Assembly: GCA_007694935.1 (NCBI GenBank)
Contig: REES01000080.1
Span: 1-38,453 of the forward strand
Source of the DNA: Rhodospirillales bacterium
GTDB lineage: Bacteria; Pseudomonadota; Alphaproteobacteria; Rhodospirillales; Defluviicoccaceae
Length of the DNA stretch: 38,453 bases
Direction: 5' to 3'
In this document: positions 6,096 through 37,008 of the stretch, piece after piece
Layout: the number at the start of each line of letters is the position of its first letter
Position numbering within the stretch: the first letter of the stretch is position 1
The notes under the pieces: generated by a model
Told to the model about the DNA's origin: nothing
Databases searched by the model: none
Seen by the model: the letters and a program-made list of their open reading frames with translations, nothing else
Position numbers and translations under genes: made by a program

Positions 6096-7430
6096 TCAGC
6101 GCTGGTCCACGGGTACATAGCTCCGCACCGGGGCGCCCATGTAGCGCTGGCGTGGCCGGTCGATCCGCTGGGCGGGCGACTCGATCATTTCCTTCCACTG
6201 GGAGATCCAGCCGATGCTCCGACCGAGCGCGAACAGGGCGGGGAACATCGGGGTCGGGTAGCCCATCGCCCGCAGCATGATGCCGGAGTAGAAGTCGACG
6301 TTGGGAAACAGCTTGCGCTCGACGAAATAGCTGTCCTCCAGGGCGATCCGCTCCAGCTCCATAGCCAGTTCGAACAGCGGCTCATCCTTCTTGTCCAGTT
6401 CGTCGAGGACCTCATGGCAGGACTCGCGCAGCACCCGGGCGCGCGGGTCGTAGTTCTTGTACACCCGGTGACCGAAGCCCATCAGGCGGAATGGATCGTT
6501 CTTGTCCTTGGCGCGGGCAATGAACTCGGGGATGCGATCGCGATGGCCGATCTTTTCCAGCATCGCCATCACAGCGGCGTTGGCGCCGCCATGGGCCGGC
6601 CCCCACAATGAGGCAATCCCGGCCGCGATGCAGGCGTAGGGTGTTGCCCGGCTGGACCCGGCGATGCGCACGGTGGCGGTGGAGGCGTTCTGTTCGTGGT
6701 CGGCGTGCAGGACCAGGAAGCGGTTCATCGCGCGGGCCTGGACCTTGGTCACATGATACGGTTCGGCCGGCACCGCGAAGCACATGTGCAGGAAGTTGGC
6801 CGCGTAGTCCAGGTCGTTGCGCGGGTACACGAAGGGCTGACCGAGAGCATACTTGAATGCCATGGCGGCGATCGTCGGCATCTTGGCGATGATTCGGTGG
6901 GTGGCGATCGCGCGGGCTTGCGGGTCATGCACATCCATGTGGGCGGAGTAGAAGGCGCTGAGGGCGCCGACGGTGCCGACCATCACGGCCATCGGGTCGG
7001 AATCCCGACGGTAGCCCTCCAGGAAGCTCTTCATCTTCTCCTGGACCATGGTGTGATAGGTAATGGTGCGGTCGAATTCGGTGAGTTCGCTGTGATTGGG
7101 GAGCGCCCCGTAAAGCAGCAGATAGCAGACCTCCAGAAACGATGCGTTCGCGGCAAGTTCCTCGATCGGGTAGCCGCGGTGCAGCAGGATGCCGCGCTCG
7201 CCGTCGATGTAGGTAATGGTGGAATCGCAGCTGGCGGTGGACAGGAAGCCGGGATCGAAGGTGAAGTATCCGGTGTCGCGATACAGGCGCTGGACGTCCA
7301 CGACCTTCGGACCATGGGTGCCGGCCAGAACCGGCAGGTCATAGGTGCGGCCGTCCTCGTGAAAGGTCAGGGTGACGCGTCCCGCCTCACCGGGTTGCAG
7401 GGTTTCCAGTTGCGGTAGCTGATACGCCAT
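6096..7430 (-). CDS. gltA: Citrate synthase (type II, hexameric class)
   Basis: This 444-aa enzyme condenses acetyl-CoA with oxaloacetate at the entry of the TCA cycle. The catalytic triad is present: His280 in [12 protein letters not shown], His321 in [14 protein letters not shown] and Asp379 in NVDFYSG. These lie 16-17 residues beyond the E. coli GltA positions. Length and the N-terminal beta domain ([16 protein letters not shown]) fit the Gram-negative, NADH-responsive type II class. The ATG at 7430 has a strong GGAGG six bases upstream. The frame stays open for about 106 further codons, but that stretch has no citrate synthase character. In many Rhizobiales gltA follows lpxB; here it lies antisense between DUF1467 and proS. 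Confidence 0.97.
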
Positions 7431-7508
7431 CGATGTCCTCCCTCCGTTGGGCCGGTGCAGTGGCACTCGGCGAGGCGCCGATCGCGCTGCCGAGCTCGAC
7501 CGGGCACC

Positions 7509-7525
7509 CTTTAGTGATGTTAAAG
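7509..7525. promoter_or_regulatory. Small AT-rich dyad upstream of gltA
   Basis: CTTTA and TAAAG are inverted around a 7-base spacer, about 80-95 bp upstream of the gltA start, in locally AT-rich sequence. It could be an operator or part of the gltA promoter. The arms are short, so chance occurrence is quite possible. Confidence 0.25.
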
Positions 7526-7690
7526 ATAGGGGGTTGTCCGCGAGGCGGCCACGGCAGGGATCAGTCGAAAGGCCGCCGGCGGCATCCTGTGGTCGGTTAT
7601 CGAGAGCCGCAGCGGCCGACCCGACCGGAGCCGGAACCCTGCGACAACCACGGAAGACGGCGTCCTCCGGCGGTGTCCAACCAACCAAAA

Positions 7691-7727
7691 CAGAAGGCAA
7701 GACCTTGCGATCTTGCCTCGTCTTCTG
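7691..7727 (-). terminator. Terminator-like hairpin on the minus strand, 260 bp upstream of gltA
   Basis: An 8-bp perfect stem (AGGCAAGA/TCTTGCCT, 7695-7702 with 7711-7718) encloses an 8-base loop. CAGA/TCTG can pair outside it across a bulge. Read on the minus strand it is followed by TTCTGTTTTGG, a U-rich tail, as in intrinsic terminators. It lies upstream of gltA in the gltA direction. It could be a leader attenuator, the end of a short transcript started near 7800, or a structured 5' UTR element. Confidence 0.45.
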
Positions 7728-7756
7728 TTTCAGCGTTTGCTCATGCACGCTTTGGT

Positions 7757-7786
7757 AGAAGGTATTGCTCTTATTATTTACCTTCT
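7757..7786. promoter_or_regulatory. 8-bp inverted repeat flanking an AT-rich core, gltA/proS region
   Basis: AGAAGGTA (7757-7764) and TACCTTCT (7779-7786) are perfect inverted repeats separated by 14 bases that are almost all A/T apart from GCTC. This is one of the most AT-rich spots in the window. A spaced dyad over a potential -10 region suggests a regulator site for the divergent gltA/proS promoters, but no known motif is recognised. Confidence 0.4.
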
Positions 7787-7840
7787 TGGTGTTCCCCCTA
7801 AACCCGGGCCGACAGCTTGCTGAAGGTCAGCACTGTTTCT

Positions 7841-7869
7841 GATCCAAGTAGAAAAATACTACCAGGATC
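7841..7869. promoter_or_regulatory. 29-bp compound palindrome in the gltA/proS region
   Basis: The order is GATCC, two bases, GTAG, a 7-base A/T core, CTAC, two bases, GGATC. Nine of eleven positions on each side pair symmetrically. It may be an operator or a stem-loop. No match to a known regulator motif is claimed. Confidence 0.4.
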
Positions 7870-8081
7870 GAAACCCATCGTCACCCACTTTGTGCATGGC
7901 CGCCAGCATTTTATGACGGTCTCTTGACGCCGTGGCGACGGCGGCGGCAGGTAGTCGCCTGGCGAAGCGCCGGCGCCGTGACAACCATCGACGGTTGCCG
8001 TGGCAGCGTTCACGGGCTGCCATTGGCGTTTGATGTTGTTTCGCCCATGACCTACAGTCCGCGACGCTCGCGGGTACCACC

Positions 8082-8133
8082 GTTTCTCGTGCCCGTTTGT
8101 TCTGCCGGTTTGTCCTGCCCGTTTGTCCTGAAA
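8082..8133 (+). repeat. Four tandem 13-bp repeats immediately upstream of proS
   Basis: Four head-to-tail copies of a 13-mer with consensus GTTTGTCCTGCCC lie at 8082-8094 (two mismatches), 8095-8107 (two mismatches), 8108-8120 (exact) and 8121-8133 (ends AAA instead of CCC). The array ends 9 bp before the proS ATG, so it lies in the promoter or leader. Thirteen is not a multiple of three, so it is not a protein repeat. It could be a variable-number tandem repeat or a set of binding sites. Confidence 0.75.
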
Positions 8134-8142
8134 GTCTGCCAT

Positions 8143-9456
8143 ATGCTGTTGTCCCGTCTGCTGCTGCCGACCCTCAAGGAAGTCCCGGCGGAGGCCCAGG
8201 TCGCCTCCCACCGGCTGATGCTGCGCGCCGGCATGGTTCGCCAGTCGAGCGCGGGGATCTACTCCTGGCTCCCGCTGGGGCTGCGCGTCTTGCGTCGGAT
8301 CGAGGCGATCGTGCGCGAGGAGCAGGATCGGATCGGCTGCCAGGAGATATTGATGCCGACCATCCAGCCCGCGGAGCTGTGGCGGGAAAGCGGCCGCTAT
8401 GATGCCTATGGCCCGGAAATGCTCCGGATCACCGACCGGCATGACCGGGACCTGCTGTATGGTCCCACCAACGAAGAGCAGATCACCGATATTCTCAGGG
8501 CCAGCCTGAAGAGCTACCGGGAGTTGCCGAAGCTGCTCTATCACATCCAGTGGAAGTTCCGCGATGAGATCCGCCCCCGGTTCGGGGTGATGCGCGGGCG
8601 CGAGTTCCTGATGAAGGACGCCTACTCGTTCGATATCGATGCCGCCGCGGCGCGGGTATCGTACGAGACGATGTTCGTGAGCTATCTCCGGACCTTTGCT
8701 CGCCTGGGCCTGAAGGCCATCCCGATGAAGGCGGAGAGCGGCCCGATCGGCGGCGACATGAGCCACGAGTTCGTGGTCCTTGCCGAGACCGGCGAGAGTC
8801 AGATCGCCTACCATCGGGATCTCGCGGCCGGGGACTGGAGCGGATTGCCGGTGGACGACGACGCGGAACGTCGCCGGGTCGTCGCCGAATTCACCGGCAA
8901 GTATGCCGCCACCGACGAGGAGCGCGACCCTGAGGCCGAACGGGTCCTGGGCGATGCCCTGGTGCAGGGGCGCGGGATCGAGGTCGGCCACATCTTCTAC
9001 TTCGGCACGAAGTACTCCCGACCGATGAACGCAGCCGTGCAGGGGCCGGATGGTCAGGCTATATGTTTCGAGATGGGTTCCTATGGGATCGGCGTGTCGC
9101 GCCTTGTGGGGGCCATTATCGAGGCATCCCATGACGAGGCCGGCATCGTCTGGCCGGACAGTGTGGCCCCTTTTCGGGTCGGACTGATCAACCTCCGGCC
9201 GGCGGATGCGGCGTGCGACGAGGCGTGTCGGCACCTCTATGCGGGGTTGTGCGGTGCGGGTGTCGAGGTGCTGTTCGACGACCGTGACGATCGTGCCGGG
9301 GTGAAGTTCGCCGAGATGGATCTGATCGGCCTGCCGTGGCAGGTGATCGTGGGACCGCGCGCCCTCAAGACGGGCCAGGTCGAGCTGAAATGCCGGCAGA
9401 CCGGTGAGCGGGCGGAGATCAGCATGGAATCCGCGTTGGCCCGGCTGACGGCATAG
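8143..9456 (+). CDS. proS: Proline--tRNA ligase (short alphaproteobacterial type)
   Basis: ProRS (437 aa) charges tRNA-Pro. Class II motifs are visible: motif 1 around [20 protein letters not shown], motif 2 in [21 protein letters not shown] and motif 3 in [16 protein letters not shown]-terminal anticodon-binding domain follows from about residue 345 (FRVGLINLR to [14 protein letters not shown]). It lacks the about 180-residue YbaK-like editing insertion of E. coli ProRS, as is usual in alphaproteobacteria (about 440 aa). The frame is open further upstream (ATG at 8047), but the protein family starts at the M-L-L-S-R...LPTLKE segment, so 8143 is chosen even though its Shine-Dalgarno is weak. 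lolC follows after 13 bp. Confidence 0.96.
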
Positions 9457-9469
9457 GAGTGGAACAATC

Positions 9470-10711
9470 GTGTTGTCATCGTTCGAATGGCTGATCGCCA
9501 TGCGCTATCTGAGGGCCCGGCGGAGCGAGGGGTTCATCTCGGTGATCGCCTGGTTCTCGCTGCTGGGCATCGCGCTTGGCGTCGCCACGCTTATCATCGT
9601 CATGTCGGTGATGAATGGCTTCCGCCAGGAGTTGCTGGGCCGGATCCTGGGCCTCAACGGCCATATCAGCGTCTATGCCGAGGCGGGCGGTTTCACCGAC
9701 TACGACGATCTCGCCGCCGCCATCCGCGACCTGCGCGACGTGACCGCCGTCTACCCCATTGTCGAAGGCCAGGTGATGGTCACCCACCGGGGTTCCACCC
9801 GCGGCGCGGTGGTGCGCGGCGTCCGGATGGCGGATCTGAGGCAGAGACCGATCCTGGCGGACAACATCAACCTCGGCACGCTCGACAACCCCGACGAGGG
9901 CTTGGTCATCGGCCAGCGGCTGGCGGAGCAGATGGCCGTCACCGTGGGGGACGAACTCTCCATCATCTCACCCCAGGGACGGGTGACCGCGTTCGGCTCG
10001 GTGCCCCGGGTCGGGACCTTCCCTGTGGCGGCGATCTTCGAGGTCGGCATGTATGAATACGACTCGAGCTTCGTGTTCATGCCGATCGAGATGGCGCAGG
10101 CGTATTTCCAGTTCCCGGGCGCGGCTTCGGCCCTGGAGGTGTTCCTGACCTCCCCGGACCGGGCGCCGTCCCTGGTGCCGGACCTCTATCGGGTGCTGGG
10201 TGACCGGGGCGGACGCATCCTCGAGTGGCAACGCGCCAACGCCGGCTTCTTCAACGCCATTCAGGTGGAACGCAACGTGATGTTCCTGATCCTGACGCTG
10301 ATCATCCTGGTGGCAGCGTTCAACGTCATCTCCAGCCTGATCATGCTGGTCAAGGACAAGGGCCGGGATATTGCGATTCTCCGCACGATGGGGGCCACGC
10401 GCGGGATGATCATGCGGGTCTTCCTGATCGCGGGTGCCAGCATCGGCGTGATCGGCACGACTCTCGGATTCGCCATCGGCCTTGCCATTGCCAACAACAT
10501 CGAGGTGATCCGCCAGTGGATCCAGGGGATGACCGGCACCGAGCTGTTCGCCGCGGAAATCTACTTCCTGTCGCAGCTTCCGGCGGAAGTGGACCCGGCT
10601 GAAGTGGCGATGGTGGTGATGATGGCCCTGGGCCTGTCGTTCCTGGCCACGTTGTATCCGTCCTGGCGGGCAGCGCGGATCGATCCGGCCGAAGCGTTGC
10701 GTTATGAATGA
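9470..10711 (+). CDS. lolC: Lipoprotein-releasing ABC transporter permease LolC/LolE family
   Basis: This 413-aa inner-membrane permease works with LolD to extract mature lipoproteins from the inner membrane and hand them to LolA. It shows the family layout: a first helix after a short cytoplasmic N-terminus ([35 protein letters not shown]), a large periplasmic domain (about residues 50-265) and three C-terminal helices of the FtsX type. The C-terminus ends with the typical [17 protein letters not shown]. The start is GTG at 9470 with GGAG upstream. Many alphaproteobacteria have a single permease here that serves as both LolC and LolE, so the choice between those names is open. Its stop overlaps the lolD start by 8 bp. 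Confidence 0.93.
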
Positions 10712-11419: not shown

Positions 11420-14400
11420 ATGCCGGCAACGTTCGTCCATCTCCGTGTGCATACGGCCTATTCGCTGTCGGAAGGGGCGATCCGCATCCGCGACCTGCCG
11501 GAGTTGTGCCGGCGCCACGGCATGCCGGCGGTGGCCATCACCGATACCGACAACCTGTTCGGCGCGCTCGAGTTCTCGGTCACGATGGCGGGCGCCGGAA
11601 TCCAGCCGATCATCGGCTGCCAGCTCGCGGTTGCCCGAGAACAGGCGGACGACCGGGCCGGTCAAGGGCCTGCCGGCGGCCCGGTTGCCGAGCCGATGGT
11701 TCTCCTCGTCCAGAATGCTGAAGGCTACCGCAACCTGTTGGCGTTGCTGGCTGCCGCCCACCTGGGGTCCGGCCGACCGGACCCGGAACCGGGCTCCGGT
11801 GCCGGCGGTTTCGTCGGCATCGCCGATTTGGCGCGCCATGGCGACGGGCTGATCGCCTTGACCGGGGGGCCCGACGGGCCGGTCGGTCGACTGTTGGCCG
11901 ATGGCCAGGTCGACCGTGCGGATGCCCTGCTCGAACGGTTGAAGGCCGCGTTCCCCGGCCGGCTCTACGTCGAGGTGATGCGTCATGGTGCCAGGGAGGA
12001 CTCGGATGGGGCACGGGTCGAGCCCCTTCTGCTTGACCTGGCCGAGCGGCATCGCCTGCCGCTGGTGGCAACCAACGACGCCTACTTCCCCTCGACCGAC
12101 ATGTTCGAAGCCCACGATGCGCTGATCTGCATCGCCGAGGGTACGTTGATCGCCAATGATCAGCGCCGGCGGCTGACCCCGGACCATCACTTCAAGAGTG
12201 CCGAGGCGATGGCCGAACGGTTCGCCGACCTGCCGGACGCCATCGACAACACCGTGCTGATCGCCCGGCGATGCGCGTTCTTCCTGGAGCCGGTGAAACC
12301 GATCCTGCCGGCGTTCGCGACCGGTACCGGCCTCGATGCCGAAGCGCTGTTGCGCCAGGAAGCCCATGACGGCCTTGCCCGGAGGCTGGCCAGCCAGGCC
12401 GCCGCTCAACCGGCCGCTGATGACGGGGTGGCGAGCGGTGACCGGGACTCGGCCGAACGGCACTATCGCGAACGCCTGGATTACGAACTGGGCGTCATCT
12501 GCGAGATGGGATTTGCCGGTTACTTCCTGATTGTCGCCGAATTCATCCAGTGGGCGCGTCGCCATGGCATTCCGGTTGGGCCCGGTCGCGGCTCCGGTGC
12601 CGGCTCGGTGGTCGCCTGGTCGCTCACCATCACCGATCTGGACCCCTTGCGTTTCGGCCTTTTGTTCGAGCGGTTCCTCAACCCCGAGCGGGTGTCGATG
12701 CCCGATTTCGACATCGATTTCTGCCAGGACCGCCGCGACGAGGTGATCCATCATGTGCAGGAGCGGTATGGCAGCGACCGGGTGGCGCAGATCATCACCT
12801 TCGGCAAGCTGCAGGCCCGCGCCGCGCTTCGCGACGTCGGCCGGGTGCTGGGCATGGCCTATGGCCATGTGGATCGAATCTGCAAGCTGGTGCCCAACAA
12901 CCCCGCCAACCCGGTGACTCTGGCCCAGGCGATCGAGGGGGAGCCGCAACTTCAGGAGATGATCCGGGCGGACGAGAACGTGGCCCGGCTGGCGGATATC
13001 GCGCGCAAGCTGGAGGGACTCTACCGCCACGCGTCGACGCACGCAGCCGGGGTGGTGATCGGCGACCGGCCGCTGCACGAACTGATCCCGCTCTATCGCG
13101 ATCCTCGCTCCGACCTGCCGGCCACCGGCTTCAACATGAAATGGGTGGAATCCGCCGGCCTGGTGAAATTCGACTTCCTCGGCCTGAAGACCCTTACTGT
13201 CCTGGCCATGGCGGTCGACCTGGTGGCGGAAGCCACGGGAACCCGGCTCGACCTCTCCAACCTGCCGCTGGATGACGCCAACACCTTCCGCCTCTTGGGT
13301 GAGGGCAACACCGTCGGCGTGTTCCAATTGGAAAGTGCCGGCATGCGCGATGCGCTGCGCAAACTCAAGCCCGACAAGTTCGAGGACATCATCGCCGTCG
13401 TGGCACTGTACCGGCCGGGGCCGATGGACAATATCCCGAGCTACATCCGGCGCAAGCACGGCGAGGAGGAGCCGGACTACCTCTATCCCACGCTCCGCCC
13501 GATCCTGGAGGAAACCTACGGCATCATCATCTACCAGGAACAGGTGATGCAGATTGCCCAGGAACTCGCAGGATATTCCCTGGGCGCCGCCGACATCCTC
13601 CGGCGTGCCATGGGCAAGAAGAACAAGGAGGAGATGGAGCGCCAGCGGGCGGTGTTCGCGGAAGGTGCTGCCGGACGCGGGGCGCCGCCGGCGCGGGCGG
13701 CGTTCATCTTCGACCTGGTGGCCAAGTTCGCCGGCTACGGATTCAACAAGTCTCACGCCGCCGCCTACGCCCTGGTCGCCTACCAGACCGCCTATCTCAA
13801 GGCCAACCACCCGGTGGCCTTCATGGCGGCGTCCATGGCCCTCGAGGTGGGGCATCCGGAGAAGATCAGCACCTTCCGGCAGGAACTGACCCGCCTCGAC
13901 GTCACCCTGCTGCCGCCCGACGTCAACGCATCGGCCGCCAACTTCACGGTCGCGGATCCCGGTTCCGGGGACGGCCGCGGCGGTGCCATCCGTTACGGCC
14001 TCGCCGCGGTGAAGAACGTCGGCCAGGCAGCGATGGAATCGCTGGTGGCGGAACGGCAACGGAGCGGCCCGTTCGCCGATCTTGAGGATTTCTGCCGGCG
14101 CATGGAGCCGCGACAGGTCAACAAGCGGCAGATCGAAAACCTGGCAAAGGCCGGTGCTTTCGATTCCCTCGAGCCTAACCGGAGGCGGGTGTTCGAAGGG
14201 GCGGAAGCCATCGTCCGCCATGCCGCCCAGGTCGCGCGCGAGCGCGAGAGTGGGCAGATGGGGCTGTTCGCAGCCGCTCCGACGGGCTCGGAAAGCTGGC
14301 TGCGCCTGCCGGACGTGCCGGATTGGCCGATGGTTCAGCGCATCCGGGAAGAATTCCTGGCGATCGGGTTCTACCTCTCGCAGCATCCGATCATGGTGCA

Positions 14401-14947
14401 CGAGAAGGCGTTGCGCCGGCTCGGAGTGACCCCGATCGCCGAAGCAGGCCGTCGCGTCGGCAACGGCGCACTGCTGCTGGCCGGCACCGTCACCGGCAAG
14501 AAGGAGCGTACCTCGGGTCGAGGCAGCCGTTATGCTTTCGTGGATATGTCGGACGCCTCGGGTGTATTCGAGGTGACGGTGTTCGCGGAACTGCTGGCTT
14601 CATGCCGGGAATTGCTGGAAGTCGGCAACGCGCTCCTGGTGCGGGTGGCGGCCCGTGTTGACGGCGAGCTCATGCGGCTCACGGCGCAGTCGATCGAGCC
14701 GCTCGAAGCCGCAGCGGCCCGGACGTCGGGAGGTGCGATCGTCCACCTCTACGGTGCCGAGGGGGTGGCTGCGATGCGCGAGCAGCTGCTGGCACGGCCC
14801 GGCACGGGGTCCGTGGTCAAGGTTCTGTGCTGGGTATCGGCGGTCGGCGAGGTGGAGATCGAGCTGCCGGGCCGATACGCCGTCGGCCCGGAAGCGCTGG
14901 CCCGCCTGCAAGCGATGCCCGGGATCAGCGCCGTGGAGGAGCTGTGA
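11420..14947 (+). CDS. dnaE: DNA polymerase III alpha subunit
   Basis: DnaE (1175 aa) is the replicative polymerase subunit. An N-terminal PHP domain starts at once (FVHLRVHTAYSLSEGA). The polymerase palm carries PDFDIDF with aspartates at about 431 and 433, and the third carboxylate in VKFDFLGL at about 585. Also visible are PGRGSGAGSVVAW, the ASTHAAGVVI region, YRPGPMDNIPSYIRRKHG and a C-terminal OB-fold (LLAGTVTGKKERTSGRGSRYAF). Size matches DnaE1 enzymes. The ATG has a strong GGGAGGA 12 bp upstream and follows lolD by 29 bp. It closes the nuo-to-dnaE block, and a strong hairpin follows. Confidence 0.98.
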   Translation: MPATFVHLRVHTAYSLSEGAIRIRDLPELCRRHGMPAVAITDTDNLFGALEFSVTMAGAGIQPIIGCQLAVAREQADDRAGQGPAGGPVAEPMVLLVQNAEGYRNLLALLAAAHLGSGRPDPEPGSGAGGFVGIADLARHGDGLIALTGGPDGPVGRLLADGQVDRADALLERLKAAFPGRLYVEVMRHGAREDSDGARVEPLLLDLAERHRLPLVATNDAYFPSTDMFEAHDALICIAEGTLIANDQRRRLTPDHHFKSAEAMAERFADLPDAIDNTVLIARRCAFFLEPVKPILPAFATGTGLDAEALLRQEAHDGLARRLASQAAAQPAADDGVASGDRDSAERHYRERLDYELGVICEMGFAGYFLIVAEFIQWARRHGIPVGPGRGSGAGSVVAWSLTITDLDPLRFGLLFERFLNPERVSMPDFDIDFCQDRRDEVIHHVQERYGSDRVAQIITFGKLQARAALRDVGRVLGMAYGHVDRICKLVPNNPANPVTLAQAIEGEPQLQEMIRADENVARLADIARKLEGLYRHASTHAAGVVIGDRPLHELIPLYRDPRSDLPATGFNMKWVESAGLVKFDFLGLKTLTVLAMAVDLVAEATGTRLDLSNLPLDDANTFRLLGEGNTVGVFQLESAGMRDALRKLKPDKFEDIIAVVALYRPGPMDNIPSYIRRKHGEEEPDYLYPTLRPILEETYGIIIYQEQVMQIAQELAGYSLGAADILRRAMGKKNKEEMERQRAVFAEGAAGRGAPPARAAFIFDLVAKFAGYGFNKSHAAAYALVAYQTAYLKANHPVAFMAASMALEVGHPEKISTFRQELTRLDVTLLPPDVNASAANFTVADPGSGDGRGGAIRYGLAAVKNVGQAAMESLVAERQRSGPFADLEDFCRRMEPRQVNKRQIENLAKAGAFDSLEPNRRRVFEGAEAIVRHAAQVARERESGQMGLFAAAPTGSESWLRLPDVPDWPMVQRIREEFLAIGFYLSQHPIMVHEKALRRLGVTPIAEAGRRVGNGALLLAGTVTGKKERTSGRGSRYAFVDMSDASGVFEVTVFAELLASCRELLEVGNALLVRVAARVDGELMRLTAQSIEPLEAAAARTSGGAIVHLYGAEGVAAMREQLLARPGTGSVVKVLCWVSAVGEVEIELPGRYAVGPEALARLQAMPGISAVEEL

Positions 14948-36609: not shown

Positions 36610-37008
36610 CTAGCTCTTCTTCTTGGCCTTTGACTTCTTGGCCGGTTCCTCCTCCTTGGCTTTGGATGCCGTCTTGGGCTTGGCCGCGCTGGTGGATGCC
36701 GGTTTCGTCGCCGGCTTCTCCGCGGGATTTTCGGCGGGCAGGGCTGCTGCAGAAGTGGCAGGCTTTTCGGCCGCCGCCTTCCCGGCCGGGGCGGGCTCCG
36801 CCGGCTTCGGCGGAGTGGCCGGTTCGGCCTTGGCAGCCGGCTTCGGCGGGGTGGCCGGTTCGGCTGCCGGTGCCGCGGCTGCGTCCTCGGCGTTGATCTC
36901 GGCTTCGGCTTGGCGCCAGTTCTCGTCGTCCTGCCCGATGGGGCAGCCCTGCCGCTCCCAGATCTCGTAGGCGCGCCGTTCGATCCGCTGCTGTCTGTGC
37001 TCGCTCAT
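36610..37008 (-). CDS. DUF2934 domain protein with Ala/Pro/Lys-rich tail
   Basis: This is a 132-aa protein. Residues 1 to about 40 form a DUF2934 domain ([28 protein letters not shown]), a small helical module of unknown function often seen near glycogen or stress genes. The remaining about 90 residues are low-complexity Ala/Pro/Lys/Glu, with a 12-residue internal repeat starting PATPPKPA and 9 lysines in the last 22 residues (ending KKSKAKKKS). The tail looks like histone-H1-like or AlgP-like disordered basic tails and could bind nucleic acid or a polyanion. It lies just upstream of glgB on the same strand; a shared promoter is possible. Function is unknown. Confidence 0.85.
36800..36864 (-). 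repeat. Two-copy 29-bp direct repeat inside the DUF2934 gene
   Basis: Two 29-bp copies (36800-36828 and 36836-36864) differ at one base and are offset by 36 bp, exactly 12 codons. They encode the repeated PATPPKPA segment of the tail. The in-frame offset suggests slippage or unequal exchange in a disordered linker. Confidence 0.8.

Follow-up and report, generated by a model that had tools for sequence, protein, structure and literature searches.

A degenerate 13-bp tandem repeat in the probable 5′ leader of the prolyl-tRNA synthetase gene of a Rhodospirillales bacterium

What is a short tandem repeat doing directly in front of a housekeeping tRNA-synthetase gene? The question is raised by a 38,453-nucleotide stretch of Rhodospirillales DNA (contig REES01000080.1, Defluviicoccaceae; hereafter the window), in which four 13-bp units stand head to tail at 8082–8133 and end 9 bp before the ATG of proS at 8143. 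This arrangement had been described in a first-pass annotation, which offered multiple protein sites, a variable-copy expression tuner or a leader RNA element as possible roles. Direct reading and TRF confirmed the array and its position, as well as the divergence of the units described there (2, 2, 0 and 3 changes in units 1–4). The units are as follows.

8082–8094, plus strand: repeat unit 1, GTTTCTCGTGCCC, two changes relative to the consensus (direct reading and TRF)
8095–8107, plus strand: repeat unit 2, GTTTGTTCTGCCG, two changes relative to the consensus (direct reading and TRF)
8108–8120, plus strand: repeat unit 3, GTTTGTCCTGCCC, which is the consensus and its sole exact copy in the genome (direct reading)
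8121–8133, plus strand: repeat unit 4, GTTTGTCCTGAAA, in which the final three bases differ (direct reading; the TRF call extends to 8130)
8134–8142, plus strand: 9-bp spacer from the array to the start codon, forming with the end of unit 4 the place where a Shine-Dalgarno sequence is expected

TRF reported the array at 8080–8130 with a period of 13, 3.9 copies, 84% matches and a score of 74. At lag 13, 32 of the 39 positions of the array match, a level that 2000 first-order Markov resamplings of the region 7437–8142 (706 bp; lags 8–25) never reached (maximum 26), nor did 100 resamplings of the window (maximum 29). Arrays of this kind are uncommon, not unique: a genome sample of 269,464 bases, composed of 20 genome stretches and the window, contains seven arrays with at least 2.5 copies and a score of at least 50, among which the proS array is third by score. 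The highest-scoring array of the sample is a 42-bp unit repeated 2.5 times (L144:15937–16041). Another of the seven, detected by TRF in the window at 36800–36864, is inside a coding frame; the product, a 132-aa protein with a DUF2934 domain (36613–37008, minus strand), ends in a tail rich in Ala, Pro and Lys that is encoded in part by this array.

The genes around the array are the following.

6096–7430, minus strand: gltA, citrate synthase, the divergent neighbour (Citrate_synt domain)
8143–9456, plus strand: proS, prolyl-tRNA synthetase, 437 aa (class II synthetase core and anticodon-binding domains), with a start that agrees with those of relatives
9470–10711, plus strand: lolC-like ABC permease gene, the next gene (FtsX and MacB_PCD domains)

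For comparison, 110 proS loci with at least 100 nt of upstream sequence each were used. A ProS search of 60 genomes gave a match in all 60, some of them weak and resembling other synthetases, and the best 30 loci, including those of the window and of a same-genus genome (G001), constitute the same-order set; the remaining genomes were unused. The named set consists of the best 80 of at least 591 public-genome matches, some of which may belong to the same species as the same-order loci. For the relatives, proS starts were projected from the protein alignment. Where the projected position held no start codon in the 80 named loci, it was shifted to an ATG at most 9 nt away; eight of the 80 keep a GTG or TTG start, the position of which may be off. 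The ATG at 8143 aligned with an ATG in all 30 same-order loci (window and G001 counted). The reading frame is open up to 7924, but an N-terminal extension of ProS was rejected because the start of the relatives aligns with 8143, and an in-frame ATG at 8048 was rejected as the proS start because it lies upstream of the deduced transcription start. A lolC match lies downstream of proS in 108 of the 110 loci (80 of them being the best 80 of at least 591 public matches). Citrate synthase is found upstream of proS only in the window genome and G001 (two of the 110 loci), a count limited by the upstream reach of the loci, which is at most 1.5 or 3 kb and in some far shorter. A tRNA search of the window found none. 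In the region 7430–8300, three terminator-like sites were found, compared with 1.0 expected. A terminator-like hairpin at 7694–7719, with 11 pairs when read on the minus strand and 8 on the plus, lies ∼265 bp before the gltA start, in a possible gltA leader.

The comparison with relatives also suggests a sigma-70-type proS promoter of the form TTGATG-N15-CCTACAGT at 8030–8058, which has two elements.

8030–8035, plus strand: −35-like TTGATG of the putative proS promoter, which same-order relatives also have before proS at equal spacing
8051–8058, plus strand: extended −10-like CCTACAGT of the putative proS promoter, 15 nt past the −35 element; the relatives have CCTAAAGT- or CCTACAGT-like sequences

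Upstream of proS, TTGATG-N15-CCTAAAGT or a close variant of it is seen in many of the same-order loci. When scored with this two-part motif, the window matches at 13 of 14 positions, and a score of at least 12 was obtained in 12 of 28 same-order relatives (the best 30 loci with the window and G001 left out), in none of the named loci, which are for the most part more distant (the best 80 of at least 591), and in none of 550 shuffled sequences, a control that is too favourable because the motif was derived from the same relatives on which it was scored. A generic promoter scan of 7430–8300 returned no promoter, the pair TTGATG/TACAGT being reckoned at 8 of 12 against a threshold of 9. Because the promoter shared with relatives lies upstream of the array, the array itself was rejected as a promoter element, and it is most likely located in the transcribed 5′ leader, roughly 16–20 nt past the deduced transcription start. 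Four head-to-tail units, beyond chance, thus lie between a promoter, as placed by the relatives, and the start codon, which is the anatomy of a degenerate tandem repeat (minisatellite) in a bacterial 5′ leader.

The length of the leader is consistent with expansion. The distance from the end of the −10 element to the ATG is 84 nt in the window and 35–57 nt in the 12 relatives with a score of at least 12; subtraction of three units (39 nt) from the window value gives 45 nt. At a looser cut of at least 11, which 8 of the 550 shuffled sequences also reached, 22 relatives have leaders of 35–166 nt with a median of 46. Repeat-free leaders near 80 nt are present at L065 (76 nt, score 11) and at L053 and L064 (81 nt, score 10), and these leaders, together with the 35–166 nt spread, render the length argument suggestive only.

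We consider it fairly probable that the array is an ordinary degenerate minisatellite in the proS 5′ leader, most likely a passive one. A 13-bp piece of the leader may have expanded into four copies, replication slippage being the probable mechanism, and the copies would then have accumulated changes. Situated downstream of the proS promoter and upstream of the start codon, the array would belong to the transcribed leader, outside the promoter core, and would lengthen a pyrimidine-rich, weakly structured leader that is nearly devoid of Shine-Dalgarno pairing. Initiation at proS probably depends on an open start region. Extra copies would add leader length and leave the predicted access to the start codon unchanged, so that the effect of the array on proS would probably be small.

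Nothing in the analysis points firmly to a dedicated regulatory function of the array. The fold of 8058–8200 has a z-score of +1.09, and 177 of 200 shuffled sequences were at least as stable. Rfam gave no match at the gathering score in the window; two sub-threshold matches in 7430–8200 (E values of 0.035 and 0.41) are far below the thresholds of their families, and neither overlaps the array. Thus, the leader shows no known family and no stability beyond shuffles that would mark a T-box, riboswitch, attenuator or other structured leader RNA. The earlier idea of a leader RNA element therefore holds with respect to position, given the relatives' promoter upstream of the array, and finds no support as a structured or family RNA. 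A hairpin at ∼8058–8074 (−9.6 kcal/mol alone) was considered as a 5′-end structure and dropped, because its 5′ arm is probably at or before the transcription start. With the transcription start set at 8062, the predicted openness of the start region (−20 to +15) stays at 0.54–0.56 across 1, 2, 3, 4, 5, 6 and 8 copies. That of the array itself, however, climbs from 0.37 with one copy to 0.48 with four and 0.63 with eight, which speaks against a passive array, as a ribosome landing region would want such a rise.

This observation bears on the main rival explanation, in which the U-rich, pyrimidine-rich units form an S1/standby landing region that compensates for the missing Shine-Dalgarno sequence of proS, more units providing more open RNA for the 30S subunit. 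We regard this explanation as possible, though rather unlikely. The proS Shine-Dalgarno duplex is predicted at −0.9 kcal/mol with a presumed 16S tail; this is weaker than in 105 of the 108 other proS leaders (median −4.1), and proS ranks last in this respect among 16 start sites hand-picked from the ORF list of the window. The leader also exceeds 106 of the 108 in the U content of its last 40 nt, 105 in start-region openness, 102 in leader openness and 98 in pyrimidine content. It is thus open and U-rich, as an S1/standby region would be, and the weakness of the Shine-Dalgarno sequence, the U content and the open start region, at the 97th–98th percentile of the 108 leaders, are not predicted by a passive array. 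These values are the only results pointing to a role, and they are correlated measures that were chosen and viewed jointly post hoc. Only 2% of 300 random 52-mers from the window, substituted for the array, match the native array in openness, but 32% of 300 shuffled arrays do, indicating that composition, not order, accounts for it. Moreover, the missing Shine-Dalgarno sequence is located in unit 4 and the spacer and is hence not a consequence of expansion, and the predicted access to the start site is independent of copy number.

Published systems offer partial parallels to such a landing region. Standby sites are not known to require tandem repetition. As far as the available descriptions go, the proS leader resembles the S1/standby-site leaders of E. 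coli in being open upstream of the start site, and a role of S1 would be assigned here by analogy. According to the accessible part of PMC4679880, TAACTGA heptamers in marine Beggiatoaceae lie just 5′ of start codons that mostly have no Shine-Dalgarno sequence, some of them preceding genes for translation proteins, including the aminoacyl-tRNA synthetase gene pheS, and S1, Csp or Csr proteins have been proposed as binders. The proS array likewise adjoins a start codon without a Shine-Dalgarno sequence (judged with the same presumed 16S tail), and the naming of S1 among the proposed binders favours a landing region. It differs in unit and length and in being a single array, whereas ∼169 sets occur in one Beggiatoaceae genome according to the same part of that source; a dispersal of one unit over many start codons was not found in the present genome. 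A literature search for repeats at prolyl-tRNA synthetase genes gave no related report, from which we do not claim absence from print.

Among the genomes compared, the array recurs in the same-genus G001. The alignment of the window with G001 contains two identical blocks.

7168–10323, no strand assigned: 3,156-bp block identical to G001 (an exact run in the alignment), spanning part of gltA, the array, the complete proS gene and part of lolC
13496–14445: 950-bp block identical to G001, within a large gene (11420–14947)

Elsewhere, the window and G001 are ∼80% identical (68–93% in 250-bp bins outside the two blocks). Across 46,960 aligned columns drawn from three further 20-kb stretches, the longest uninterrupted identity spans 74 bp. 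The blocks represent either very recent DNA exchange between the species or reads of one in the assembly of the other. Third-position GC, compared with a view to the direction of transfer of the 3,156-bp block, gives no direction: the values are 0.805 for the block part of gltA and 0.858 for its remainder in the window, 0.894 for the 5′ part of lolC, 0.837 (window) and 0.891 (G001) for its 3′ part, and 0.843 and 0.808 for lolD. The array of G001 is identical to that of the window, with four units in each, but because it lies inside the 3,156-bp block its four copies do not amount to a second, independent observation, and the array can be claimed to be neither conserved nor variable. In a family search of 11 genomes, with G001 as the sole congener of the window genome, eight of the nine besides the window genome and G001 matched in the proS coding sequence only, and one matched nowhere. 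A more far-reaching proposal combines the landing region with this block: an essential synthetase gene would have given up its Shine-Dalgarno sequence and would initiate from a tandem U-rich ribosome landing unit, the leader and proS having recently passed between two congeneric species. We consider this combination improbable.

Even less credence is given to the idea that the array is a variable-copy tuner (VNTR) whose unit number differs from cell to cell or from strain to strain and controls the expression of proS. Imperfect repeat units lower slippage, and the units here are imperfect; an essential housekeeping gene is an unlikely target for phase variation; the sole comparison, four versus four units, falls within the identical block and is hence not independent; and the predicted openness of the start site is unaffected by copy number. 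What favours a tuner is the likeness of the array, in a 5′ leader roughly 16–20 nt past the deduced transcription start, to the repeats of clbR in E. coli. The clbR 5′ UTR carries, in the part of PMC7364221 available, an 8-bp VNTR, ACAGATAC, of 2–20 copies that begins 16 bp past the transcription start, and reporter light was 2-fold higher with 20 repeats than with 5. Both arrays are short tandem repeats of a divergent intergenic region, placed in the 5′ UTR after the transcription start and before the start codon; unlike the clbR repeats as described there, the proS array has a 13-bp unit in four imperfect copies and precedes a housekeeping gene whose transcription start is deduced. The AGAT tetranucleotides of uspA2 in Moraxella catarrhalis, a surface-protein gene (6–23 copies by strain, as cited in the accessible part of PMC4679880), are likewise tandem repeats in a 5′ UTR, the proS array differing from them in its 13-bp unit and in preceding a housekeeping gene.

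The unit shows little sign of recurrence. In the 3.09-Mb genome, a two-unit pattern with up to three mismatches has no match outside the array, and a single unit with up to one mismatch has three matches (two of them elsewhere, with one mismatch each) versus five for a reversed control. In the last 70 nt of the 108 other proS leaders, the mean best match to the unit is 7.5 of 13 positions (maximum 10), compared with 7.3 in shuffles, and the strongest tandem signal in these leaders is 18 of 26 versus 23 in the window. This genome-wide search leaves the proposal of multiple protein sites unsupported: although four evenly spaced copies just downstream of the putative promoter would suit clustered sites for a DNA-binding regulator beyond the transcription start, we find such sites very improbable, as the two-unit pattern is confined to the array, single units are no commoner than the control, the relatives' leaders contain no good match, no dyad was seen in the unit by eye, and sites 13 bp apart do not fall in phase with the helical turn.

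The identical block shared with G001 is a caution that agreement between two genomes within a genus is not necessarily independent evidence of conservation. If the array were an S1/standby landing region, a tandem unit would replace the Shine-Dalgarno sequence at a housekeeping gene, and the locus would test how much open leader a ribosome needs. If it is passive, as we favour, the proS array would provide a neat example of leader growth by slippage between a recurring promoter and a start codon.
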